Positions 1 through 57,180 of a DNA stretch of 64,000 nt are shown piece after piece. The stretch is from Boletus sp. NGJ (lineage: Eukaryota > Basidiomycota > Agaricomycetes > Boletales > Boletaceae): the NCBI GenBank assembly GCA_019096195.1, contig JAGTXK010000091.1, positions 62,001 through 126,000 of the forward strand, read 5' to 3'. Position numbers and translations under genes: made by a program. The notes beneath the pieces were generated by a model, which searched no databases, was not told where the DNA came from, and was given only the letters and a program-made list of their open reading frames with translations. The first letter of the stretch is position 1. Each line of letters opens with the position of its first letter.

Positions 1-384
1 AAAACTAGAAAAGTGGACTTCTTAGGTATGGTTGTATCTAAAAAGGGGGTAGAGATGCAGTCGAAGAAAGTGGCAGGGTTCATGGATTGGCCAGTTCCCA
101 CATGACTAAAGCAACTTCAGAGATTCCTCGGACTTTGTAACTATTATAGATGATTTATAGAAGGCTTTACTGAAATTGCACATTCTCTGAATGATCTTAC
201 CAAGAAAGATATTCCATTCAGATGAAGACTCAACCAACAGAACACCTTTGAAACTTTAAAATGAAAATTCACAGAAGCACCACTTCTCGCCTATTCAAAT
301 TGAGATCAAGAAGTGTGCGTGGAAACCAATGCCTTGGACATTGCAATGGGAGCAGTACTCTCAACCCTATGCAAAGATGGTAAT
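1..384 (+). mobile_element. Ty3 lineage B pol fragment (RT/RNase H part)
   Basis: The left edge of the window opens inside a Ty3/Gypsy pol, at the end of the reverse transcriptase and the connection to RNase H. It closely matches 58833-59147 and, on the other strand, 24200-24480; a shared landmark is the stretch encoding VVSKKGVEMQ. The copy is a decayed fossil. It stops at the target site GTAAT (380-384), where Ty3-A1 inserted, and resumes at 7636, so the two halves belong to one older insertion. The younger related copy at 59680 reads straight through this site, which shows the uninterrupted state. Upstream parts lie outside the window. Confidence 0.85.
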
Positions 385-745
385 TGAAACGAACTCGGAC
401 ATTTTCTCTTTTCTTTACGAAGTTAGCTATCACTTAGACGATCCCACGAACGCATTACGTAGTTACCACTAGGCCTAGACCTTACGTCCAGACCATACGT
501 CATTCATCAGTCAGCCTACGTCACACCCCTATACCCATAGAACAGGCTAGACCCCACTACGTCACCCTACATCATAGGGAATATTCCAGTAGGTTCCATG
601 ACTGGCCCTAAGCTGGTCCGTGCTCATCAGTAGTTAGTATATAAGTAGCACTACAGGACTTGTATTAGCTAATCTTGGAATTCCTCTTCTCTCTCTCGAA
701 TATCACGCTTGCGACTCTTGAGATATTGAGGTCTTCTTTCTTTCA
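385..745 (+). repeat. 5' LTR of Ty3-A1
   Basis: 361 bp, TG...CA, paired with 7270-7630. It carries a TATA box at 638-644 and a row of TACGTC motifs (three complete TACGTCA at 496-502, 517-523 and 558-564), which match the half-site of bZIP/ATF factors. The predicted transcript start lies near 670. All six differences from the 3' LTR are C/T or G/A changes at CpG positions. Confidence 0.95.
638..682 (+). promoter_or_regulatory. Ty3-A1 core promoter and predicted transcript start
   Basis: TATATAA at 638-644 is followed 32 bp later by TAATCTTGGAATT (670-682). That 13-mer is the exact reverse complement of the bases just after the LTR (746-758). In a Tf1-like element the 5' end of the RNA primes reverse transcription, so the complementarity places the transcript start at about 670, at normal TATA spacing. 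The start site itself is inferred. Confidence 0.7.
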
Positions 746-758
746 AATTCCAAGATTA
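746..758 (+). other. Self-priming primer-binding site of Ty3-A1
   Basis: AATTCCAAGATTA directly abuts the 5' LTR and is the perfect complement of 670-682 in the same RNA. No match to a tRNA 3' end (TGG start) is seen. This fits the self-primed Tf1/sushi group of fungal chromoviruses. Confidence 0.8.
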
Positions 759-1184
759 TCCCTCGTCCCCGGGCTCTTTGCCTCTGGACATTTCCTCCCC
801 TCTACCCCTACTGTTTTGCCTAGTCAGAGCAAACTTTTTGCCTGCTAGTACCGCTCTTGCCCTTCGATCCAACACTCCCCGTATCTGACCCTCAGAGGAA
901 CCGAGGGACCCCCGTTAGCGATAGACATAATACCGGACCTATACGGCGGTTGTCAGTGCAGGGATCTCCTCGACTGCAGGGAACGAATAAGGAGTTCAGG
1001 TCTCGCTTCTCCCTCCCTCCATTCACTTCCGAACGCATGGGCTCGTCGCCGCCGTTCACCCATACACCGGACCTCAGGTTTAGAGGGACCCGCTCGTACA
1101 CGTGACATACGCGAGTAAAGCACTCGGCGAAACGCTTTGTCATACGCTCGTCCGGCGTTTACAAATAAGGATAAGGTTGCTACC

Positions 1185-1258
1185 GGGCATAGTGCACTAG
1201 CCCCGCTTCTTGGGTGGTTGTCGACCCAAGCGTATGTTGGTACTACGATAGTGTATCC
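1185..1258 (+). other. Structured leader RNA of Ty3-A1: three hairpins
   Basis: Untranslated leader between the primer site and gag. Hairpin 0 (1185-1203) has a GGGC/GCCC stem around the palindrome GTGCAC. Hairpin 1 (1209-1230) has a 7-bp stem CTTGGGT/ACCCAAG with loop GGTTGTCG. Hairpin 2 (1239-1258) has GGTAC facing GTATCC around the loop TACGATAGT. The same three hairpins occur in Ty3-A2, Ty3-B1 and Ty3-B2 with compensating stem changes. The role is unknown; packaging, dimerisation or translation control are possible. Confidence 0.65.
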
Positions 1259-1572
1259 AGGTTCGCGTGATCACCTGTGATGTCACGTAGGTGCGATAAC
1301 TCGATTTATCTCGACTTTCGAGCGTGCACCACCTTCCTGTAGTAAGGAAGTCATCCTCCGGTCCCCTATCACCGCCCGACGTCTCCCCCCTCCTGACGGT
1401 GTGCGGTCTTTCCCGCCGTTATTCTTTACAGCCCTGTCTTCAGAAGGCCCCCGCATATACAACGTATTCAGACGCCGCTACATCTGGGTACACCCCGATT
1501 ACTCCTTCGTCATCCACATGGTCCTCACGACCTACTCCACGCACAACCACTGACACCGCACCATAACCCGCC

Positions 1573-3050
1573 TTGCTCAGCTCGCAGGACTACGCCGAGA
1601 TGAGCCAAGAACCCCAAATGCTGTACTCTCGCCCCATGTCCGCCGCCCCCACCCCGGGCAGCTTCAGGGACCTGGCCAACCGGGCAGCAGCCCAGGGCCT
1701 GCCTACCCTCCAGCTCGTCCAACCTACCCTGCAAACGATCCTGGCCCCTCTACCGCAGGCCCCTCCTACCCCCATGCGCCAGCAGGACATCGAACAGTAC
1801 CTGCTACACCAGTCCGTCCTCCGGTACAACCTATGGCGACAAGCGTTCGCGGCCGACGCCATAGCGGCTGGACCGCCCCCACCAATCGAGCTCCCTCAGG
1901 TGGACCCTCCCGCTCCCTCTCCCGGAGCCCACTCCCCGAGCTACGGTATCCGAGTCCACATCCCTTCACCAGGGAGGACTCCCCGTCTGGTCCCACCGCA
2001 GGGCCCAGCTCCTTCGCGCCCGCTCCCCATGCCCCCGCAGCCGAGCTCCCCCTCTCACTCGGCCTCACCTGGGATCCCGCGGCCCGCCGCACGTGGCTTC
2101 CCCCCAACTTCCCTGAGGATCGGGAAGAGCCTGGCCGCTAAGCCAGAGCATTACGACGGAAACAAGGAGAAGTTCGTTCAGTGGTGGAGGAACAGTCACA
2201 TCTCCTACCTCAACGGCTTCGAGAGCATGCCGACCGATCGGCAAAAAATATCTCATCACTCTGTCGTACATGCGAGGCGACAATGGCCGCCGGGCGATTC
2301 TCAGACCTCCTGGTTGAAGGAGACGCCTACGCCGCCGTCAACTTTGAGTTCTTCGTGGAGAAACTCAAGAAGACGTTCCAACCCGCCGGTCTCGTCTCGA
2401 CTGGCTGAACAGAAACTGTTCTCCCTTCGCCAAGGGAAGGACAGCGTGGAGGACTACTTCACGCGCCTGTGTCCAGCTGGCCATCGAGGCCAAATTCGAC
2501 GTGAGGATCAACGGGGAGGACGATCGTCAATCAGATCCGGCACCAGGCCCGGAACGAACTGGTTGAGTACGTCGAGAGGTACAAGCCAGACCTCATCGAC
2601 TCCACCGACGTCCGTGAGTGGGAGACCGCCCTGGTACGGGCAGAGGAGGTCCTCGGCGCCATCGCAGAGCGCAAAAAGGCCTCCAATGTCTTCGCCACCG
2701 GTCCCACCTACAACCCGCGCTTCATCCCGCGTCCTCGCTCTTACGCACCTCCCGCTGCACCCCCTCCTACTCGCCCGCCCCCCTCGGCGCCCGTCGTGCG
2801 CCCGCACCCTCAGACCACCGGGGTCTTTCCCGGACAAGGCGCTCCTATGGAGCTCGACAAGGCACGCGCAGCTGGACTGTGCCGAAAATGCAGGAAGCCC
2901 TGGCCCTGCGCCGATCACCCGCCCCGCCCTCGCCCACAAGCGAGGAGCATTACGGTAAACGGTCAGGAAGTTTCCCCGGACATGTTTGCGACGATCACGA
3001 GCCATGATGGACTCAGCGGAGAGGCTCCCGCATGGAGGAGCCAGTAGTGT
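1573..3050 (+). pseudogene. gag region of Ty3-A1
   Basis: Encodes the capsid precursor of the element. The first third is very rich in proline, serine and alanine (about residues 1-170). It is followed by the capsid core with the landmark AKPEHYDGNKEKFVQWWR and a hydrophobic, helical stretch, then a proline-rich linker and a zinc-knuckle-like cluster (CRKCRKPWPCADH, near 2880-2920). The same order is found in Ty3-A2 at 11646-12917. The region is broken in this copy. The long opposite-strand reading frames here are a by-product of the high GC content. Confidence 0.8.
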
Positions 3051-7258: not shown

Positions 7259-7269
7259 AAAGGGGGTAA

Positions 7270-7630
7270 TGAAACGAACTCGGACATTTTCTCTTTTCTT
7301 TACGAAGTTAGCTATCACTTAGACGATCCCACGAACGCATTACGTAGTTACCACTAGGCCTAGACCTTACGTCCAGACCATACGTCGTTCATCAGTCAGC
7401 CTACGTCACACCCCTATACCCATAGAACAGGCTAGACCCCACTACGTCACCCTACGTCATAGGGAATATTCCAGTAGGTTCCATGACCGGCCCTAAGCTG
7501 GTCCATGCTCATCAGTAGTTAGTATATAAGTAGCGCTACAGGACTTGTATTAGCTAATCTTGGAATTCCTCTTCTCTCTCTCGAATATCGCGCTTGCGAC
7601 TCTTGAGATATTGAGGTCTTCTTTCTTTCA
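7270..7630 (+). repeat. 3' LTR of Ty3-A1
   Basis: 361 bp, TG...CA, 98.3% identical by eye to 385-745. It is preceded by the polypurine tract at 7257-7266 and followed by the target duplication GTAAT (7631-7635). Confidence 0.95.
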
Positions 7631-10465: not shown

Positions 10466-10804
10466 TGAAACGACTCTAACATTTTTCCATAAGATTATCA
10501 TAGTTAGCTAAGACTTAATGATCCCACGAAACGATTACATAGTTAAACTATACCTAGACCTTAAGTCTAGTCCCTACGTCAGGCTACATCACAACCCTAT
10601 ACCCATAGAACAGCCTAGACCCCACTACGTCACCATACATTATATGGAACATTCTAACACCTTCTATGCCGGCCCTAAACCAAGGACCGTAGGTAATATA
10701 TAAGTAGCATAGTAATATCTGTATTCGGTAGCTTTGGAATTCCTTTTCTCTCTCTTGGATAGTGCACTTTGCACCCCTTGAGATATTAAGGCCTTTCCCT
10801 TTCA
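10466..10804 (+). repeat. 5' LTR of Ty3-A2
   Basis: 339 bp, TG...CA. TATATAA lies at 10697-10703, and the predicted transcript start TAGCTTTGGAATT lies at 10729-10741, 32 bp downstream. TACGTCA motifs are retained in part. Confidence 0.93.
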
Positions 10805-10817: not shown

Positions 10818-11237
10818 CTACCTTGTCCCCAGGCTCTTCGCCTCTGGACACTTCTAGCCCTCTCTCTCTTGCTTTTGCCTAGTCGGTGCAAACTTTTTGC
10901 CTGCTAGTACCGCTCTCGTCTTCGACCCAGACCCTCCCCGGATCAATCCTCAGAGTAACTGAAGCCTCTCGTTAGTGATAGATGCAATTCCAGCCTACTA
11001 GGTGGTTGTTAGCGCAAGATCAGCTTCGACTGCAGGAGAAGATAAGGAGATACCAGTCATCATTCTCTCCTTCCCTCCCACTTCCGAATGCACGGGCTCT
11101 TCACTGCCATTCACCCCTTGCCAGACCTCAGGCTTAGAGGAACCTGCTAGTACACGTGACGTACTCGAGTAAAGCACTCGTTGAAGTGCTTGTCTATATG
11201 CTTGTCCGGCGTTCTAAGTAAGGATAATGTTGCTACT

Positions 11238-11310
11238 AGGCATAGAGCACTAGCCCCGCTTCTCGAGTGGTTGTCGACCCGAGCGTACGCTGGCACTACA
11301 ATAGTGTGCC
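11238..11310 (+). other. Structured leader RNA of Ty3-A2
   Basis: The same three-hairpin block as at 1185-1258. Hairpin 0 is at 11238-11255. Hairpin 1 is at 11262-11283 (CTCGAGT/ACCCGAG, loop GGTTGTCG). Hairpin 2 is at 11292-11310 (GGCAC/GTGCC, loop TACAATAGT). Confidence 0.6.
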
Positions 11311-11645
11311 TAGGTTCACGTGATTACCTGTGATGTTACGCAGCTGCGATAGGAGAGTTTATCTCACCTTCTCTCTGTGCAGCACCTCCCCATAGTAAGG
11401 GAGTTATCCTCCGGTTTCTCCCTCCAACTCTCTCACTTCCAGACGGTGTGCAGTCTTTCCTGCCATTTTCTTTTCCAAGCTGCCTTTGGAACAGACCCGT
11501 TCCTACCAAGTCTTTCGCCGGCGATATGTCTGGGCACACCCAGAGTATAGCCTCGTAGTACACACCACTCTCACAACCTACTCGCTGACACTTATCCAGC
11601 GCATATGTACAATAACCCACCTCGCTCAGCTCGCAGAACTTTGCC

Positions 11646-12917
11646 ATGATGACCACAGTCCTGAGCCCCTACAGTCGCCCCACCTCCGCTGCTCCAGGGA
11701 GCTTTCGTGATCTTGCCCAGAGGGCAGCAGCCCAGGGCCTTCCTACCCTCCAGTTGGCCCAACCGGCCCCATACCTCCCCGCAGCCACCCACCTGCAACA
11801 GGAGGTGGCCCAGTACAACCTCCATCAATCGGTCCTGTGCTACAACATGTGGCACCAGCAGTTTGTGGAAGACCCTGCAGTGGCTGGACCGCCACCTCCA
11901 ATTGAGATCCCACGTGAGGACCCCACCCAAGTCCACATGGGCCCCATTCGGGTCAATATCCCATTACCTGCCAGAACACCCCGGGTCCCTCCACAGGGCC
12001 CTCCCCCGTCCCGACCCCTGCCGACCCCACCATCACTGCCCTCCGGCCCAAGTTCACCTGGGCAGCCGAGGGCACCAGCGCATGGATTTCCCCTGACTTC
12101 CCCCTGGATTGGCAAGAGCTTGGCCTCCAAGCCAGAGCACTACAATGGGAATAAGGAGAAGTTCATCCAGTGGTGGTGAACGATGACCTTATACCTAAGT
12201 GGCTTTGAGACTGAGCCGACCGATCGACAAAAAATCCTCATCATGCTCTCTTACATACGTGGAGACAACGCGGCAGGCTGCTTTTCCAACTTACTGGCCA
12301 AGGGCAACGCATACACCCTTATCAGCTACAAATTCTTCATCGATAAGTTGAAGAAGACCTTCCAACCTGCTGGGCTCATCAGACAGGCCGAGCAGAAACT
12401 CTTCACCCTCAGGCAGGGGAAGGATGCAGTAGAAGATTACTTCACATGACTCTATCAGCTGGCGATGGAGGCAAAGTTCAACATGCAGATCAATGGGCGA
12501 ACAATCGTCAACCAAATACGCCATCAAGCTCGCAACGACCTGGTGGAATACATCGAGAGGTACAAACCCGACCTCATCGACAGCACCGACGTTTGCGAGT
12601 GGGAACAAGCACTAGTAAGGGCAGAAGAGATCCTTGGCGCCATTGGAGACAGAAAGAAGGTGACTTCTGTCTACACAACTGGCCCCACATACAAGCTGCA
12701 CTTTATCCCTTGCCTCCGTTATGCCCTGCCGACAACTGCGCCTTCTGCCCCAATGCCCGCTATGCGTCCACACTCTCAGCAAACCAGGACATTCCCTGGG
12801 CAAGGCACTCCAATGGAGCTGGACAAGGCACGTGCAGCCGGTCTGTGCAGAAAGTGTAGAAAACCTTGGCCCTGTGCAGACCACCCCCCCCCCCCCCCCG
12901 CCCTCGCCCACAGGTGA
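11646..12917 (+). pseudogene. gag region of Ty3-A2
   Basis: Homologous to the gag of Ty3-A1: a proline-rich start (SAAPGSFRDLAQRAAAQGLP), the capsid core (KPEHYNGNKEKFIQWW, then RGDNAAGCFSNLLAKGNAYT), and the cysteine cluster CRKCRKPWPCADHP near 12845-12885. A 16-base C run (12884-12899) directly follows the cluster. The region is a decayed fossil. Confidence 0.8.
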
Positions 12918-20916: not shown

Positions 20917-21739
20917 TTAGTACTTTGTATGCCCTCCCTTTGCTTTTATCACTGCCTCTAGTCTTCTAGCCATACTCTCTATCAATCCTTGACACTCCTC
21001 AACCTCTATCTTCCCCCACTCCACTTCAATTCTCTCCCAAAGCTCCCATACTCCTTTTGGTGGCGTTGTATAGCTATTGAGTTTTTTTTTGAGGATTTGC
21101 CAGAGATGTTCAATGGGATTAAGGTCTGGAGATTGTGCTGGCCAGTCAAGAAGCTTGATCCCTTGAGATTCCAGCCACTCCTTGGCTCTTTTAGAGGTGT
21201 GCTTGGGGTCATTATCTTGTTGAAAGATAATGCTCTCTTCAGGAATTCCAGAATTTTCCATGGAAGGAAGCAGATTATCCTCCAAAATGGAGACATACTG
21301 CTCAGCATTCATCCTCCCTTCAACCTCTGCAAGAATCCCCACTCCACTCCAACTCATGCATCCCCAAACCATCAAGGAACCTCCTCCAAACTTTACTGTT
21401 CTCTGAACTTCCTTGTCTTGCAAAGACTTTCCTGCCAATTTCCACACATACTTCCTTCCATCTGACCCAATCCTGTTGATCTTGGTTTCATCTGACCATA
21501 TAACCCTAGTCCAGTCCTCCACAGTCCAATGTTGGTGCTTGAGAGCAAAGGCTAGCCTATGTTGCCTATGCTTCACAGACAGGAGTGGCTTCTTTTTCTT
21601 GACTACAGCCTTGAGAGATGCAGACTTGAGAACATTCCTAACAGTTTGAGCAGAGACAGGAGAAGAGAGAGCTGAATTGATGAGATGGGTAGCCTGGACA
21701 GCATTTTCAACTTTGCCAGAGGTAATACTAGAGACAATT
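20917..21739 (-). CDS. Tc1-1 transposase, C-terminal part (residues about 66-338)
   Basis: Cut-and-paste DDE transposase of the Tc1 family. The frame is open from the Ty3-B1 insertion point (21739) to the stop at 20917. It begins with the second helix-turn-helix region (VSSITSGKVENAVQATHLIN) and runs into the catalytic domain. Catalytic residues, numbered in the undisrupted 338-codon frame, are D148 in WSDETKINR, D240 in FQQDNDPKHTS and E275 in DLNPIEHLW. The second and third are separated by 34 residues, the DD34E signature. The C-terminus is QGLIESMARRLEAVIKAKGG followed by HTKY. No stop or frameshift is seen. The N-terminal part is at 28148-28346. Confidence 0.93.
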
Positions 21740-27063: not shown

Positions 27064-27423
27064 GACATATTTGATTACAGGTTTTAGGAGGGAGAGAGGG
27101 CAAAGATAAGAAAGGTGAATTGCGATGCGATAAAGAGCAAAAGCAAAGGAGGGGCGGAGAAGTCTCTGCTTATCGGAATTTGCCTGGTAAATTTTCCTTG
27201 GCCTTGGTTGGGCTTCTTTCAGTGCCTTACTACCTGGTATCTCACAACCAGATTCTGGGACACCTACATAAGAGTCGAAATATAAATCGTTGAAAATGGT
27301 GGGTAGCGGTGGTTGGGGTCCAGAGTATAACTGTCTTACTATGGACAGGTGTTGCATAGAGAAAAGGCGAGATAAATTCTCTTATTGCAACTGTGTGACA
27401 TCACAGGTGATCATGCAAACCTA

Positions 27424-27496
27424 GGTTCACTATCATAGAACCAGCGTACGCTAGAGTCAGCACCCACTCTAGAAAGGGGGCTAGTGCACTATGCCC
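27424..27496 (-). other. Structured leader RNA of Ty3-B1
   Basis: Three hairpins homologous to 1185-1258, read on the minus strand. Hairpin 0 is at 27478-27496 (GGGC, GTGCAC, GCCC). Hairpin 1 is at 27451-27472 with a perfect 7-bp stem CTAGAGT/ACTCTAG. Hairpin 2 is at 27424-27442 with a perfect GGTTC/GAACC stem around TATGATAGT. The stems differ from lineage A but still pair. Confidence 0.65.
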
Positions 27497-27661
27497 AGCA
27501 GCAACTTTATCTGTATTTATGATGCTGGATGAGTGTATATGCAAGAATTTCAGCGAGTTCTTTACCCGTCACCGTCAAGTGGTGATAACTTCAAATGTCC
27601 CTTCAACACTGGGCCCATGTATGATCTCCTTAGCTCTGGAGTCCAAGCATTGTATATGACA

Positions 27662-27673
27662 GTCTAATCCAAG
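27662..27673 (-). other. Self-priming primer-binding site of Ty3-B1
   Basis: Directly after the 5' LTR the minus strand reads CTTGGATTAGAC. Ten bases, TGGATTAGAC, are complementary to 27829-27838 in the LTR, which lies about 35 bp past the TATATAAAG box (27865-27873). Ty3-B2 has the same primer site at 55667. Confidence 0.7.
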
Positions 27674-28147
27674 TGTTATAATCCCTTTTGGAAACAAAAC
27701 CACAAGGCTTGTATCTCACAGGCTACATATGTCCTGGCTTAGCGAATAAGTTGGGGAGTTATCGTCTGTGTGTACACCAACCCTACAAGGACAATCTAGT
27801 CCAGGCAATGAGTCGCAATGAAAACAAGTGGATTAGACTAGGGATTCCAGTTGTCAATGTGCTACTTTATATATGTACAGGGTATGTGCACAGACCAAGC
27901 AGTGCGTGTGATAAATTACTATGTATGGTATGACGGAGATTAAAGGGGCTAGGTAAGAAGAGTGGAAATTAAAGAGTTGTGGATCACATGAGGTATGATG
28001 TCATCTGATGTCATAGGTTCTAGACTTGATCATGTGATTGTTCCCATGGTCACATGCACAGTCACATGACTTTATGAAGAAAATGATTGATGAAACGAAA
28101 AAGTAAGTGTTCAGATGAAAAGTTTGAAATTTTCGTGTATTATAACA
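27674..28147 (-). repeat. 5' LTR of Ty3-B1
   Basis: 474 bp with TG...CA ends. The TATA box lies on the minus strand at 27865-27873. CRE-like TGATGTCA motifs (decayed TGACGTCA) occur near 27995-28015. Confidence 0.92.
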
Positions 28148-33998: not shown

Positions 33999-35266
33999 TA
34001 GCTACCAGTAAAGAATGGGAAAGATCAAGATGACAAGACTGAGGTCCTCCAGTGGACCTTGGGCCTTTATATATAGTGAGTTCAATACAACCATACCATT
34101 GTCAACATGCCAGCTAAGGAAACATCAGATATGAATAATGTTGGCTGAGGAAGTGGCCCCATTATTGTAAAATACGGTGTGATTGGATTTAGTTCAAGTG
34201 AAACCCAGATGGACCATAGTGGCCCCATAGTCTACATCTAGAACCTGGGAGAAACCCTGCACAACCAAGCTAGCCTTGAAGACTAATCTGTTATGATTCT
34301 TTCCTGCTTTTCCCTATTTCATCTCATTTCCTCTCAACTCCTTCTTATATGCTGTTGGAACCCCACATATCTACTAATAGTCATTCTACTACTTCCTTTT
34401 GACATCCTACTGATATACAGAATGCCCCCTTGCTTTTACCTTCTATTATATACATAATGTTCTGCCATATTTCTTTCTTTGTCATCAAGTTCCTTCCATT
34501 GTCTTCCACAAAGGTTCTATGACCAGCCCTGAACATCTCATGCTCTATGTATATAAACTCTCTGTAGAACACAATATAAGTCATATCATTTCTCCAGCTC
34601 TCTAAGAGTCATTGTTCCACTCTTGACCAAGTGCTCCTACTCTTACCTCTTGACAAAATAGCTGAACTTGTCTGTTGCTACAATGTAGTTGGTTCCATAC
34701 TAGATGACTCAGTACCCTTGACTCTAGTAGCTCACTGCTATGCAACACTCCATTGGCTAGTTGCCAACTGAACCTTTTGAGTCTACACCTATCTCTACCT
34801 AAGGTAAGCATAACACAATCCACCTCTGTTAATCCTCCTGGAACTCTATCTAGGACCTAGTTGCATCCAATTGTCTTATGGCCCTCTGGAAGATGTGCAA
34901 GCTCATAGACATATGACTACATGGCCTTCTCAGATGTCACTGGTGATAGTACAGGGTGAGAGGGATCATAGTGCTTCTCACTTCAAATGGTGGTATTGGC
35001 TTGCTTTTTGATGATAACATACCAAACTGCCTCCACAATATCAATATCCTGTTCAATTGATTTTAGACAACTCTCTTTGGTGTGAGTGTTTTCATTTAAG
35101 TTGATATTCAAAGTGACTTGACAACAACTATTGTAGAGGTCAGGTTTGTAGATGATGGCCCAGGGGTGGAAGGGGTGATGGACACTGTGCTGTTGTCATC
35201 ATGATCAGAATCCAAGTCAGAAGTGGGACCAGGTAACATTCTCATCAAATTTGACATTACAGGCTC
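33999..35266. other. Mostly unassigned; repeated core promoter at 34021-34075
   Basis: 34021-34075 on the minus strand carries TATATAAAGGCCC and about 65 bp matching 10108-10175, so a repeated promoter or LTR core lies here, cut by Tc1-2. From 34381 to 34823 the minus strand has two adjoining open stretches (FYREFIYIEHEMFRAGHRTF and LKRFSWQLANGVLHSSELLE) with protein-like composition but no recognised family. Nothing else is seen. Confidence 0.4.
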
Positions 35267-35759
35267 CAATTAGACTAGCCTTAGAGGACACCAGAACGAG
35301 AAGCCAGCAAAGCCAAGATAGAATAGTCTACCTCAGAATGACATTGGAGTGAAGTGGACACATACAGGACGAAGCCACTAGAAACACTAGGCAACAAGGG
35401 AAGGGAGGGAAGGGGTAAAGCAAAGGCAGTGGCTAGCAAGCAAACAAGAGGACTCTGAGAACAAAAGCAAGAAGAGTTGAATTCCAATTATGCACAGCTG
35501 GCAAGCAAATGAGAGGACTGTGGGGAGAGGGGCCAGAGGAGTGCTGTCAGTGGCTTGTCAGTCGGAGTTTGAATCGGAGTTTGGAAAGAGTGGCTTTTTG
35601 CCACAATGATGTGGCACAGGCGAGAAATCTGATCATAATGGTGTGGTCAGTCAAAAAATAAGCAGGGACCCTCCAACCATAATGGTATGGCTAGTGGGTG
35701 TGCATAGTGCACATGATAGTGGCATTGTCCAATTAGCCTTGTATAAACTGAGTTTAAAC
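35267..35759 (-). repeat. DIRS-type inverted terminal repeat, minus copy
   Basis: 493 bp that match 43714-44209 in reverse. In the minus sense it begins TTTAAACTCAGTTTATACAA and ends with AAGGCTAGTCTAATTGGA. Parts of the same unit occur at 37822-38100 and 39999-40370. Inverted repeats of this kind bound DIRS retroelements, and decayed DIRS coding sequence lies between the two copies. The assignment to DIRS rests on that context. Confidence 0.75.
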
Positions 35760-37500
35760 CCAAATTTTTGCAGATCCTGCCATGTTTTGTCAATCACTAT
35801 GGCACACATTGCTTTAAACACCAAGGTACCTGGCACCTCAAATAGAGCTGTACTAGGATGGCCAGCTTTTGATTCGTGCCTGTGATTTGCAGGTCAAGGA
35901 TGATCAAATCTCGGCTATTTAATAGATTATCAATCCAACTTTCCTGTGCCACCTTGGTGCTGAAGCATGGCAAATTGATGATCTCCCCATCACCCTCATC
36001 CTAGCTGCCATTATTCATCTTCTGCTCTTGGTCTTGCATCATGCACAATGCTCGGTCAAGTACATAAGTGAAGCGCTTGCTGCATGTATGGTCACAGCTC
36101 ATGAGGCAGTCTGTCTTGCAAACATTGATGGCAGCAAAGTATCTGGGTCCATCAATAACTTGTACCACTATGCCTGCATGCATTTCAGTACCAGTCACTT
36201 CATCTGCTCAAACCATGCAGAATGCCACCTTTCAGATAGTGGCATTACAATTAACGCAGTCAAACAAAAGTAAGGCATCCTGTTCACCTGATATGCAATC
36301 ATGACTTATATATACCCTTATAAGGTACAACATTGTGTTTGATGACTTCAGAATAATCACATTCCATCACATAATGTCTGAAAGGGTCTCTCTATGAGGG
36401 AGCTGGCTCAAAATCTTTTTGGTGTACTTACAGCAAGTGGCAGGAACTTCATTGTTATAATGACAAAAATGACCGTGGATCTGAAAACATTTGCAAAGTC
36501 ATCACAGGTCTAGATGAGAATCATTTTTACCATATCCCGAATGTTGAGCTCAATGATTTCTCCATTCTTATAAAAAACTGCAAGGTGACCAGGTCGACCA
36601 TTGGTAACAGCAGTGTGATGGTCTGAGAGTGTCCTTCTCTTGGAAAACCAAGTCTGAACATTGGATCCTGTCAGCAAGGCTGGGCAGAGGATGCTCTGTC
36701 AATCAAGTATAGCTCTGCCAAGAATGGGTACAATTTCATCAGATTCTTTGAAACAAACGATATGGGGCAGAACTTTGCTTCACACCATGGTTATAGCAAT
36801 GGGAATGCCACAGGAAAATTTGTTCAGATCCTGCTTCAGGATGCATGCTGGACGTTGCCTTATGCATTCGCTCACTCTGCATTGCTACAAAGAGCCATCA
36901 TGGCAAAACAGTGGAGGACAATCAAAATATATTACTGTTCAGAATGCCCAGGGCTCCTCTGGACACTGTGCATAAATCATGGTGGGTGTCAAAGGGTAGC
37001 TTTTGGGATCCTGAGCGAAGTTACAACTGCCCTGCATCAACCCCTGGTGCCGAAATGACTGACACCTTCAACATGAGCTTTTGAAAATGTCATCACGTGA
37101 TCGTCATTTGAGGCAATAGTGACTCTGGCACATCCTTTGTGATCTTACCTGGACTTTCGATTGTTTGTGAAGCCTGGTTGCACAGACAAACTTTGTTACA
37201 AATTTACAGATTTTTCAAAGATTCTCTCGGATTTGGATGCGGCACAGGGCTTGGATGGATAGAATGATTACACATGTGCTGCCATCACCTCATGCATCAG
37301 CTCATGGCAGGTCTCTACAGTTACATTAATGCTCTATACATAAAAGGCGCAACATCTCAACAGTATGAGAGTAGCAATATTCAATGGTTCTTCTGTTTTT
37401 TTTGCAACATTGGAAACAAACCTGACTCCATAAAGCTGAGCGAGTCAAAGATGATATGCACCTGCTGCAAATAAATAGAATGAACATTATTGTGTAGTGG
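35760..37500 (+). other. Unassigned, with scattered plus-strand coding-like blocks
   Basis: No gene can be named. Plus-strand blocks near 36020-36270, 36660-37060 (NFASHHGYSNGNATGKFVQI, CSECPGLLWTLC) and 37270-37470 have protein-like composition, separated by stops. They lead into the repeated block at 37500-37821 and may be exons of the same degraded gene family. Confidence 0.35.
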
Positions 37501-43400: not shown

Positions 43401-43713
43401 GTTCTTGTTGGGTGGCAGGCCAATGCTAATCCTGACCCAGAAGGGCATTATGCCAAGATAAGAATTGGTGTTGATGGCTTTCTGTCTAGTCATAGAGACC
43501 AGGCGTGGTTGCAGTGGCTACCAATGCCAAGTTGGGTCAGGTTGGTTGTGGCATTCACTGTGTAGAGGACGAGTTTCATCTGGCATAATTCAATGTGTGC
43601 AGTCATCAATGTCGATCAAGAGGCAGTTCTCTATGGCATAAAGTCAATGGGGTGAGCTTTAGTTAGATTTGGAGAATTACTGACATTCACTCCCATCCAT
43701 ATTAATGATTGGA
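43401..43713. other. No gene seen
   Basis: The minus strand may continue the N-terminal part of the recombinase fragment, but too weakly to annotate. Confidence 0.3.
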
Positions 43714-44209
43714 TTTAAACTCAGTTTATACAAGGCTAATTGGACAATGCCACTATTATGTGCACTATGCACACCCACTAGCCATACCACTATGGTTGGA
43801 GGGTCCCTGCTTATTTTTTGACTGACCACACTATTATGATCAGATTTCTCACCTGTGCCACATCATTGTGGCAAAAAGCCACTCTTTCCAAACTCCGATT
43901 CAAACTCCGACTGGCAAGCCACTGACAGCACTCCTCTGGCCCCTCTCCCCACAGTCCACTCATTTGCTTGCCAGCTGTGCATAATTGGAATTCAACTCTT
44001 CTTGCTTTTGTTCTCAGAGTCCTCTTGTTTGCTTGCTAGCCACTGCCTTTGCTTTACCCCTTCCCTCCCTTCCCTTGTTGCCTAGTGTTTCTAGTGGCTT
44101 CGTCCTGTATGTGTCCATTTCACTCCAATGTCATTCTGAGGTAGACTATTCTACCTTGGCTTTGCTGGCTTCTCATCCTGGTGCCCCTCTAAGGCTAGTC
44201 CAATTGGAC
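43714..44209 (+). repeat. DIRS-type inverted terminal repeat, plus copy
   Basis: 496 bp, the inverted partner of 35267-35759. It ends in the perfect 12-bp palindrome GTCCAATTGGAC (44198-44209). It contains a C/T-rich tract and a start-site-like region (TTCACTCCAATGTCATTC). Confidence 0.8.
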
Positions 44210-55308: not shown

Positions 55309-55666
55309 GGAACTGATGATGTCAGATGACATCATACCTCATGTGATCCACGACTCTTTAATCTCCATTCTTCTCATATAGCCACATTAATTTCCATCTT
55401 ACTATACATAGTAAATTATCACACGCACAGCTTGGTCCATGCATCATTTCTATACATATAGAAGTACTACTTTGACGACTGGAATTTCTAGTCTAATCCA
55501 CTTGTATTCTTCCTCCAACAACTCATTGCCTTGACCACTCTGGTCATTGTAGGGTAGGATTGGGAATAGTACAGCCTAAGACTCCCCACCTCATCCATTG
55601 AGCCAGAACTTATGTAGCCTGCAAGCAGTTTTGAGCCTTGTGGTTTTGTTCTGTTAGGTTCATAAC
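55309..55666 (+). repeat. 5' LTR of Ty3-B2, outer part missing
   Basis: Matches the inner part of 59148-59626 and ends TTCATAACA. It retains the start-site motif GTCTAATCCACTTG near 55492-55505, complementary to the primer site directly after the LTR. Confidence 0.85.
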
Positions 55667-55678
55667 ACTTGGATTAGA
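55667..55678 (+). other. Self-priming primer-binding site of Ty3-B2
   Basis: CTTGGATTAGAC adjoins the LTR, is identical to the site in Ty3-B1, and its last ten bases are complementary to GTCTAATCCA near 55492. Confidence 0.7.
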
Positions 55679-55848
55679 CTATATACACAACACTTGGACT
55701 CCAGAGCTAAGGAGACATCATATATGTGGGCCCAGTATTTAAGAGACATTAGAAGTCTTTACCACTTGACAGTAATGAGTATAGCACTTAGTGAAACACT
55801 AGTTATATATGCTCGTCTGGTGTCATAAATAAGGATAAAGTTGCTACT

Positions 55849-55922
55849 GGGCATAGTGCACTAGCCCTCTTTCTCGAGTGGGTGCTGATTTGAGTGTATG
55901 TTGGTTTCTACGATAGTGGACC
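55849..55922 (+). other. Structured leader RNA of Ty3-B2
   Basis: Hairpin 0 is at 55849-55867 (GGGC/GCCC around GTGCAC). Hairpin 1 is at 55873-55894 (CTCGAGT/ATTTGAG, two G-U pairs, loop GGGTGCTG). Hairpin 2 is at 55903-55922 (GGT...ACC with loop containing TACGATAGT). Confidence 0.6.
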
Positions 55923-56239
55923 TGGGTTCTTATGATCACCTGTAACATCACAACTAATGAGGGTAGTATTCTCTTATGCCGAAGCCAGGCAGATCCAGTC
56001 CCCCCCCCTCTACTCACCCACCATTTTTAACGACTTATACTTCAATTCATTCATAGGCACCCTAGAACCCAGTTGTAAGATACCAGGTAGTAAGGTGCTG
56101 AAAGAAGCCTGACCAAGGTAAATCTATCAAGCAAATTCTGACAGGCAGAGGCCTCTTCGTCCTTTCTCTGCCTTCACTCTCTATTGCATTACAATTCATT
56201 GCTCCTATCTCCAACCCACCTCCCTTCTAAAACCCATCA

Positions 56240-57180
56240 TCAAGTATGTCTTACATGGATATAGATGAACTTGTCCAAAAGCTCACCAACCTCACACAGG
56301 AACATGATAAGAAAAACATCACAAAGAAAATTGTCAACTCTGGAAAGTGAAATGGCAATCACACCACCTTTAGGAGTTGGTAGGTAAAACTGAAACTATG
56401 GGTTGCAATCCAAAAATGGAAAAATGATGAAATCCTCATTATTGCTGTGCTATCACACCTAGAAGGAAAGGCAGAAGGATTTGCCCAATTAATGCTTAAG
56501 TACTATCTTGAGCAAGAAGATGAATCAACAACAGACACACAAGGAAATCTACTTCCAGCCAAAGGTGACATAGCATGGCCAATAGGGAAAAAGATGCAGG
56601 AGCAAATATGCGCACACTTCTGCATCAATACTCTCACACATGTGTTTCTAAAGAAACTAGAGGCTCTGAAGCAAAACAGGCATCCTATCAACCAGTTCTT
56701 GCAAAAGTTCAAGGTCTTATGAAAGGAGTCAAACATAGATGATAACCATGCAACAGTTCTCATAAAAAGGGCCATAGACATTAAAATCTATGAGAGATCT
56801 TGCCTTAACAATCCAGCAAGAGTTTATGATTACAAGGACCTTGTAATCTTGTATAGAGTCATTGTCAGAGCATTTAAACAAATGCAAACTGAATGAGGTC
56901 CTCCCATTATACCATCTTGATTCCCTCCCTGTTCATCTTATCCTTCTTCTTGTGGGCAACCTCCACAACAATTCAATTATCCACAATTCATGGTAACAGG
57001 CACACAACTGGGCAGAGGTGCCCCAATGGAAATAGGAGTCCAGCAGGTTGGACTGTCCAAGAACACAAGGACCTGCTTCCATTGCAGAAAACCTCAGCAT
57101 ATAAAGCCCAACTGTCCAACAAACTCTTATTGTCATACATTACATCTGCCTCAACAAAGGCAAATTTGAGATTGGAATCA
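56240..57180 (+). pseudogene. gag region of Ty3-B2
   Basis: Capsid precursor like that of Ty3-B1: LEGKAEGFAQLMLKYYLEQE and LKKLEALKQNRHPINQFLQK (56447-56722), then the knuckle region CFHCRKPQHIKPNCP (near 57070-57115). It starts soon after the leader. It is a decayed fossil. Confidence 0.8.

Follow-up and report, generated by a model that had tools for sequence, protein, structure and literature searches.

Four LTR retrotransposons in a 64,000-nucleotide stretch of the Boletus sp. NGJ genome (the window) carry the same block of sequence ahead of gag, and the locus raises the question of what this block is and what preserves it. A preliminary description had reported a 74-nt, three-hairpin block at 1185-1258, 11238-11310, 27424-27496 (minus strand) and 55849-55922, and all four blocks lie at these coordinates with the stems assigned to them. 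The three hairpins are real and form the middle of a unit of about 250 nt with at least eight helices. At the level of sequence comparison, the copies establish a cis-acting domain of the sense RNA that lies between the primer binding site (PBS) and gag and is kept by compensatory change in self-priming Ty3/chromovirus elements.

The elements and the shared domain

Element A1 is bounded by a direct repeat (373-745 and 7259-7630, 97.6% identical), and its pol carries RVT_1, RNase H, H2C2, rve, Chromo and SH3_Tf2-1 domains, all between the LTR pair. A pol with reverse transcriptase (RT), RNase H, integrase, chromodomain and a Tf2-1-type SH3 makes A1 a chromovirus, that is, an LTR element of the Ty3/chromovirus type. 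In each of the four window elements, a run of 11-14 nt that starts within two bases of the LTR end is the complement of a site inside the LTR itself. In A1, A2 and B1 this self-primer site follows a TATA box by 31-34 nt, and from this layout we infer the transcript start. With the start so placed, the window elements would have the self-complementary PBS of Tf1-type self-priming, which is what we take the layout to be.

378..745, plus strand: 5' LTR of A1, with ends TGG...TCA
670..682, plus strand: self-primer of A1, TAATCTTGGAATT, at the inferred transcript start, 32 nt past the TATA box at 638
746..758, plus strand: primer binding site of A1, AATTCCAAGATTA, complementary to 670-682
1112..1358 (3' end approximate), plus strand: domain, copy A1, from covariation, structure model and HMM
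about 7264-7630: 3' LTR of A1
10728-10741 and from 10805: self-primer and PBS of A2, laid out as in A1
11167..11412, plus strand: domain, copy A2, 3' end by analogy with A1
27314..27565, minus strand: domain, copy B1, HMM match
27829-27839 and 27661-27671, minus strand: self-primer and PBS of B1, laid out as in A1
55489-55500 and 55670-55681: self-primer and PBS of B2, laid out as in A1
55777..56005, plus strand: domain, copy B2, without part of the 3' helices

The domain falls between PBS and gag in each of the four elements. HMM matches within the window (1113-1367 and 11167-11421 on the plus strand, 27565-27314 on the minus strand, 55777-56005 on the plus strand) have E values of 2e-56 to 3e-82, and no fifth copy was detected in the 64 kb at HMM E<10. 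The same genome holds at least 91 distinct copies, all genome-wide copy numbers being lower bounds, and every statistic on the domain and on the reading frame described below comes from this one genome. The HMM found the block in all 108 of the loci first collected, which had been chosen because they matched, and two pairs among them are the same place twice (L002/L028 and L038/L060). Leaving out partial matches reduced 94 unique leader matches to 91. Their MAFFT alignment used no information beyond the sequence, and removal of every column with at least 50% gaps left 258 of 279. A second set of 103 copies adds 12 divergent ones; L109 and L123 (the place of L086) were left out, and L119 equals L120. 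L109, a Halomonas sequence, was the single match in a pattern scan of prokaryote genomes and is regarded as a chance match (HMM E 0.002 over 27 positions); the same kind of scan of viral contigs gave none.

The statement that the block belongs to no named RNA family agrees with a comparison of the window to Rfam, which returned no match at gathering thresholds. The stretch 1050-1450 had no match in Rfam 15 at E<=10, and the sole match in a permissive search of seven loci was weak, irrelevant and outside the domain.

The elements belong, as had been proposed, to two distant Ty3 lineages. The RTs of A1 and B1 are 47% identical over 224 aa and their Gags have no convincing similarity, a 251-aa piece of B1 Gag giving a single 30-residue match (E 0.002) to that of A1. 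Zinc-knuckle spacing is CX2CX5CX2H in lineage A versus CX2CX4HX4C in lineage B. The A-lineage Gag ends in CRKCRKPWPCADH, which has the former spacing (element position 2503 in A1, 2381 in A2), and the B-type knuckle is found at element position 1909 in B1 and 1770 in B2. DNA alignments between A and B elements of the window at E<1e-10 cover the domain alone. In the wider set, too, the domain is the shared island of cross-lineage pairs, with ends near the first domain base and near 164-266. Median domain identity is 0.75 between lineages and 0.81-0.82 within them.

In a tree of the domain, one branch with support 0.998 parts 31 copies with A flanks from 21 with B flanks without error; here the B label follows the 3' flank, and the set includes L052 and omits window B2. 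Such a clean separation implies that the module is old in both lineages, whether inherited or acquired in a single early exchange, and it rules out a recent exchange of the domain between A and B. Elements of class C, whose proteins are nearest to those of B, also carry the domain. Two class-C copies with downstream gag and pol matches keep it with the hairpin-1 stem replaced, and because of these matches the idea that class C is non-autonomous was rejected.

L052 has an A-like 5' flank and a B-like 3' flank and is either a chimaera or a nested insertion. Short matches to B1 upstream of the domain occur in four A copies (L019, L027, L029 and L032). A class-C-like hairpin 1, a replaced hairpin 2, or both, are seen in L116 and L023 (both with A-like flanks) and in L121 (weakly A-like), which suggests recombination of sub-blocks inside the domain.

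Helices, pseudoknots and covariation

The structure model of the domain is given below in the coordinates of copy A1; all features are on the plus strand, and "significant" refers to the covariation test described after the list.

1112..1137: candidate pseudoknot A, 1112-1116/1122-1126 with 1118-1121/1134-1137
1185..1203: hairpin 0, GGGC/GCCC with a bulged A, plus UAG/CUA
1203..1230: hairpin 1, stem 1209-1215/1224-1230, pairs 1211-1228 and 1212-1227 significant
1205-1218, 1206-1217 and 1207-1216: crossing pairs of pseudoknot B, linking the loop of hairpin 1 with the bases on its 5' side
1239..1257: hairpin 2, stem 1239-1243/1253-1257, pair 1242-1254 significant
1259..1276: hairpin 3, stem 1259-1262/1273-1276, 97.5% paired, two-sided change in one of four pairs
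1290..1330: outer helix 1290-1294/1326-1330 around hairpin 4, pair 1291-1329 significant
1295-1299/1306-1310: stem of candidate pseudoknot C, in combination with hairpin 4, alignment-dependent
1300-1304/1318-1322: hairpin 4, pair 1304-1318 significant
1333..1350: hairpin 5, stem 1333-1337/1346-1350, pair 1335-1348 the top-scoring one in both tests

Covariation was tested for all column pairs with our own R-scape-like implementation, not R-scape itself. It applies a G-test with average-product correction and compares the scores to null alignments in which the reconstructed substitutions are replayed on the tree at random columns; pairs with E<0.05 were called significant. Among the 91 copies, 7 of 32,385 column pairs were significant (1335-1348, 1212-1227, 1211-1228, 1291-1329, 1304-1318, 1118-1137 and 1242-1254), and all seven are canonical and inside predicted helices. 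The 103-copy alignment yielded 8 of 32,131, namely the earlier seven and 1205-1218, again all canonical. At the threshold of this alignment, one pair exceeded it in 6 of 200 null alignments, and two or more in none of the 200. The next ranks, below threshold, include the non-canonical pairs 1127-1132 (E 0.28) and 1300-1329 (E 0.29).

The preliminary description had argued that compensating stem changes mark a functional RNA. This is borne out by tree-based covariation over all copies, significant in both alignments of related leaders from the same genome, and by lineage A alone (31 copies), in which three pairs were significant in the domain, all of them canonical, and none in either of two flanks of equal size, leader and ORF0/gag. 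Lineage B alone (21 copies) gave one significant pair in the domain, one in the leader (the tight pair -179/-171) and none in ORF0/gag; this test has little power and does not separate domain from leader. In a set of 30 diverse copies, two-sided change was found in 27 of 48 model pairs, versus 16.9 ± 1.9 in shuffles and 4-13 in slid controls, and 94.7% of cells could pair, versus 33-49% in slid controls. Across 31 tabulated helix pairs, G-U occurred 144 times and A-C 70 times; this excess fits folding of the sense RNA, though a model derived from the sense strand is biased in that direction. We conclude that the domain is almost certainly an RNA under selection.

The helices differ in how much of this evidence they carry. 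Hairpins 0 and 3 contain no significant pair. Hairpin 0 is nearly invariant and offers little evidence from covariation (1187-1201 is GC in 86 copies, AU in 4 and GU in 1); its positions 1192-1197 read GUGCAC in 60 of 91 copies, GAGCAC in 23 and otherwise in 8. In pseudoknot A, the pair 1118-1137 is significant in both alignments, and the first stem is nearly invariant, so that it is only compatible with the model. Whole stems have also been replaced, that of hairpin 1 in class C and that of hairpin 2 in L023 and L121. The loop of hairpin 2, previously described as fixed, proved otherwise, since class C has TATGCTAGT or a near variant in its place.

The crossing pair 1205-1218 rose from E 0.97 in 91 copies to E 0.03 in 103, where it is composed of GU 34, AU 30, CG 26, UG 7 and CA 5. 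The neighbouring positions 1207-1216 are able to pair in all 103 copies (U-G 101, U-A 2), and 1206-1217 in 92, the remaining 11 being G-A or A-A. Because 1205-1218 crosses hairpin 1 and its neighbours can pair, hairpin 1 together with the crossing pairs is probably an H-type pseudoknot (B). Pseudoknots A and C share its geometry and are candidates. For C, two-sided changes were present at two pairs in the first alignment, and the scores shifted after realignment with the divergent copies. The B2 sublineage (55777-56005 and the related loci L069-L079) is missing hairpin 5 as well as one strand of hairpin 4 but retains, for example in L071, an AAGGG/CCCTT stem at the site of the candidate pseudoknot C stem. 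Three helices predicted by RNAalifold (1113-1115/1356-1358, 1141-1148/1154-1163 and 1169-1180/1277-1286) had no covariation support and are not claimed.

An AUG-less frame between the domain and gag

Directly 3' of the domain, divergence among the aligned copies demonstrates a conserved predicted frame without an AUG, which we call ORF0, with codon constraint up to the gag AUG. Its length is 55-81 codons.

1434-1599, plus strand: ORF0 of A1, candidate CUG at 1434-1436, one in-frame stop in this copy
1600..2958, plus strand: gag ORF of A1, AUG at 1600, offset +1 relative to the ORF0 frame
11480-11648, plus strand: ORF0 of A2, CUG at 11480, gag AUG at 11649
27306-27069, minus strand: ORF0 of B1, start codon reading CUA from 27306, gag AUG from 27068
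56014-56245, plus strand: ORF0 of B2, start codon reading UCA at 56014, gag AUG at 56246

A three-base period of divergence starts at domain-count position 323 in A (window position 1434 in A1) and 263 in B (permutation P 2e-4 in each), holds one frame up to the gag AUG and then passes into the gag frame, at a resolution of 60 bases. No such period was detected in the leader (P 0.32 in A and 0.87 in B), in the domain (0.76 and 0.35) or in the A stretch from domain to CUG (P 0.11). The ORF0 analyses used 21 B copies, without L052 and with B2; one preceding analysis took 22. Divergence is ordered third > first > second position in the sense frame, which disfavours an antisense ORF. Lineage A conserves the gag AUG in 29 of 31 copies and lineage B in 20 of 21.

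The frame begins with a near-cognate codon. In A it is CTG in 29 of 31 copies, directly preceded by a pyrimidine tract, and diverges by 0, 0.03 and 0.03 at its three positions versus 0.18, 0.11 and 0.36 for the whole of ORF0. The 21 B copies have CTG (9), TTG (8), TTA (2), CTA (1) and TCA (1), so that 17 carry CTG or TTG, and the first base is variable (divergence 0.48). Walking upstream in frame, a stop is met before any ATG in 28 of 31 A and 17 of 21 B copies. An AUG supplied by splicing was considered, as CAG/AAG follows the pyrimidine tract in A; it is disfavoured because no upstream AUG is fixed in 60% of copies and B has no such AG. From the end of the domain to the start codon is about 75 nt in A and 13 nt in B.

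Stops are absent from ORF0 in 19 of 31 A and 13 of 21 B copies, as would be expected of a mix of intact and decayed copies. Four ORF0 peptides had no match in Pfam, and an hhalign comparison of 5 and 6 sequences gave no sign of homology between the A and B frames. A decayed homologue of the B ORF0 is present in all three class-C copies that were read, two of which reach the same KYVS/AUG junction.

Throughout leader, domain and ORF0, in both lineages, the number of sites with ATG in at least 60% of copies is 0, versus 12 for CAT; no AUG is fixed at this level between the inferred transcript start and gag. The A gag is also CAT-rich (CAT 4.48 vs AUG 2.06 per copy). At the 30% level, the A leader has no AUG site and the B leader has three (-200, -159 and -51, in 8, 7 and 10 of 21 copies), and domain position 33 in A is ATG in 17 of 31 copies. 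In ORF0, where many copies are decayed, A has 1.42 AUGs per copy against 1.42 expected, and B has 1.14 against 2.41. AUG avoidance through leader and domain argues for scanning over internal entry.

From CUG to gag AUG the distance is 166-171 in A, where it equals 1 modulo 3 in 26 of 31 copies, and 210-246 in B, where it does so in 19 of 21. The +1 relation of ORF0 to gag is not uniform in near-identical copies. For example, the distances in L003-L007, whose domains are identical, are 167, 167, 166, 168 and 167, with one of the five at 1 modulo 3, and L057 and L058 have 246 and 245; in L063-L068 a simple search did not find both codons. The one-base differences may be sequencing or assembly errors, or real decay. 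No conserved +1 slip site was seen. ORF0 was rejected as a free upstream ORF with a stop of its own, since a conserved stop is missing both ahead of the gag AUG and close to it. In 15 of 31 A copies the ORF0 frame has a common stop 123-126 codons beyond the gag AUG, probably by chance, as gag is GC-rich. ORF0 would escape any annotation in which frames must open with an ATG, and similar frames may hide in other LTR elements.

Possible functions of the domain

We tentatively favour, at a little less than an even chance, a reading in which the domain is a genomic-RNA selection (psi-like) site that gates packaging and translation. The domain would fold into a compact array of hairpins and pseudoknots, to be recognised by Gag or by a host factor common to both lineages, and recognition would channel full-length RNA away from translation and into particles, perhaps with dimerisation via the hairpin-0 loop. 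Ribosomes would load at the cap and scan through a leader that is poor in AUGs; an occasional CUG start would yield ORF0 and most ribosomes would leak to the gag AUG. A single leader stretch would gate both RNA fates, as in pararetroviruses.

This choice is supported by the covariation with its controls and the place between PBS and gag, by the domain being the sole island shared by A and B and conserved across unlike coding sequences, and by the clean A/B tree, the class-C copies with gag and pol that keep the domain, and the avoidance of AUG. Several observations weigh against it. The zinc knuckles of A and B differ, making binding of a shared RNA by both Gags less obvious; the 23 copies with GAGCAC imply that loop-loop dimerisation through GUGCAC is not general; the domain almost abuts ORF0 in B, equally compatible with translation control; no non-autonomous element carrying the domain without the genes was noticed; and AUG avoidance is not clean in lineage A.

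Retroviral psi/DIS and the Ty1 leader pseudoknot are likewise structured parts of the genomic-RNA leader 3' of the PBS, and the domain probably contains a pseudoknot. The psi/DIS position between PBS and gag is matched by all four window elements, and the GUGCAC copies offer a possible counterpart to its palindromic loop, though the palindrome is not general. The domain differs from both systems in having at least eight helices over about 250 nt and no Rfam match, and its packaging role is putative. According to a 2016 review, the packaging sequences of Ty1 and Ty3 are not precisely defined, Ty3 RNA structure is uncharacterized, and a packaging role for the Ty1 leader pseudoknot could not be demonstrated (PMC4974528). 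The titles and abstract openings surveyed, with subscription papers mostly uncovered, describe no such domain or ORF0 in a Ty3 element. A bounded domain of about 250 nt with named pairs, present in elements with unlike Gags, makes packaging versus translation directly testable.

Control of translation is possible, if on balance unlikely: the domain would govern how often ribosomes initiate at the gag AUG and at the non-AUG codon of ORF0, whether through internal entry, shunting or pausing of scanning ribosomes. The psi-like signal is slightly favoured over such control of the non-AUG start. Codon constraint on ORF0 in both lineages, with its decayed homologue in class C, supports a role in translation, as do the start codon (nearly invariant in A), the nearness of the domain end to it and the pyrimidine tract of A. 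AUG avoidance 5' of and within the domain, however, is needed by plain scanning and not by internal entry, the spacing from domain to CUG is unequal between lineages, the first base of the B start codon varies, and the A and B ORF0s are unalignable. Pararetroviral shunting is defined by a conserved short ORF, whereas no conserved short AUG ORF lies 5' of a stem here, no leader AUG being present in 60% of copies. Dicistrovirus intergenic IRESs are compact RNAs with several pseudoknots and a non-AUG start directly 3'; the domain differs from them in its one significant crossing pair, in having no Rfam match and in that scanning is favoured.

By anatomy, the pararetroviral leader is the nearest system to domain and ORF0 together. 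RTBV and the Caulimoviridae are described as having a long structured leader, a non-AUG first ORF without internal AUGs and an AUG on the downstream ORF; in RTBV a pyrimidine tract precedes the non-AUG codon, which follows the structured leader and is used with leaky scanning, and one structured region serves packaging and precedes the non-AUG ORF (PMC5902531). The window elements resemble this in their structured leader, AUG gag, pyrimidine tract (A) and ORF0, which as a predicted frame has the near-cognate start of RTBV-like leaky scanning. They differ in having no single large shunt stem, in a leader that is itself AUG-poor and in an ORF0 without a conserved stop before gag.

A variant seems improbable in which the compact pseudoknotted domain drives the CUG start and a +1 shift at the gag AUG fuses ORF0 to Gag. 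With no conserved stop near gag and constraint that ends at the gag AUG, such a join is possible, and the non-uniform +1 relation in near-identical copies lowers its odds. If true, one RNA would give two forms of Gag (AUG-Gag and ORF0-Gag), and both the fate of the RNA and the form of Gag would be set at the leader domain.

The elements resemble Tf1 and the sushi chromoviruses in their self-complementary PBS after the LTR, chromodomain integrase and Tf2-1-type SH3, and they differ in the extra structured domain and ORF0, neither of which, to our knowledge, is known from Tf1. Self-priming in all four elements by the 11-14 nt match raises a doubtful alternative, that the domain serves reverse transcription or helps RNA ends to pair (presentation of the self-primer, circularisation) and has no part in packaging or translation. 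Leader folds influence primer use in Ty1, according to the review (PMC4974528), but in A1 some 350 nt separate the PBS from the domain on its 3' side.

It is distinctly improbable that the block is a module exchanged between lineages, its similarity recent and of little bearing on constraint. The island-like A-B alignment in the window and the hairpins of L116, L023 and L121, which look like moved sub-blocks, agree with exchange; against it, the clean tree split means that any exchange of the whole domain would be old, and covariation is found inside A alone. Chance pairing among related sequences, with no functional RNA, is scarcely credible, for although fold stability is modest in the one copy tested (z -2.05; 7 of 200 shuffles equally stable), variation is scant in hairpin 0 and in the first stem of pseudoknot A, and B alone gives as many significant pairs in the leader as in the domain, the tree-aware nulls over all copies and the A flank controls stand against it.

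The window contains two other features of note. Inverted repeats at 35265-35763 and 43709-44208, about 500 bp long and 97% identical, flank an interior of about 8 kb whose ORFs are 152-266 codons long and with which they are possibly a large terminal-inverted-repeat element. A DDE_3 transposase-like fragment (20917-21576, minus strand; Pfam E 7e-20) adjoins B1.
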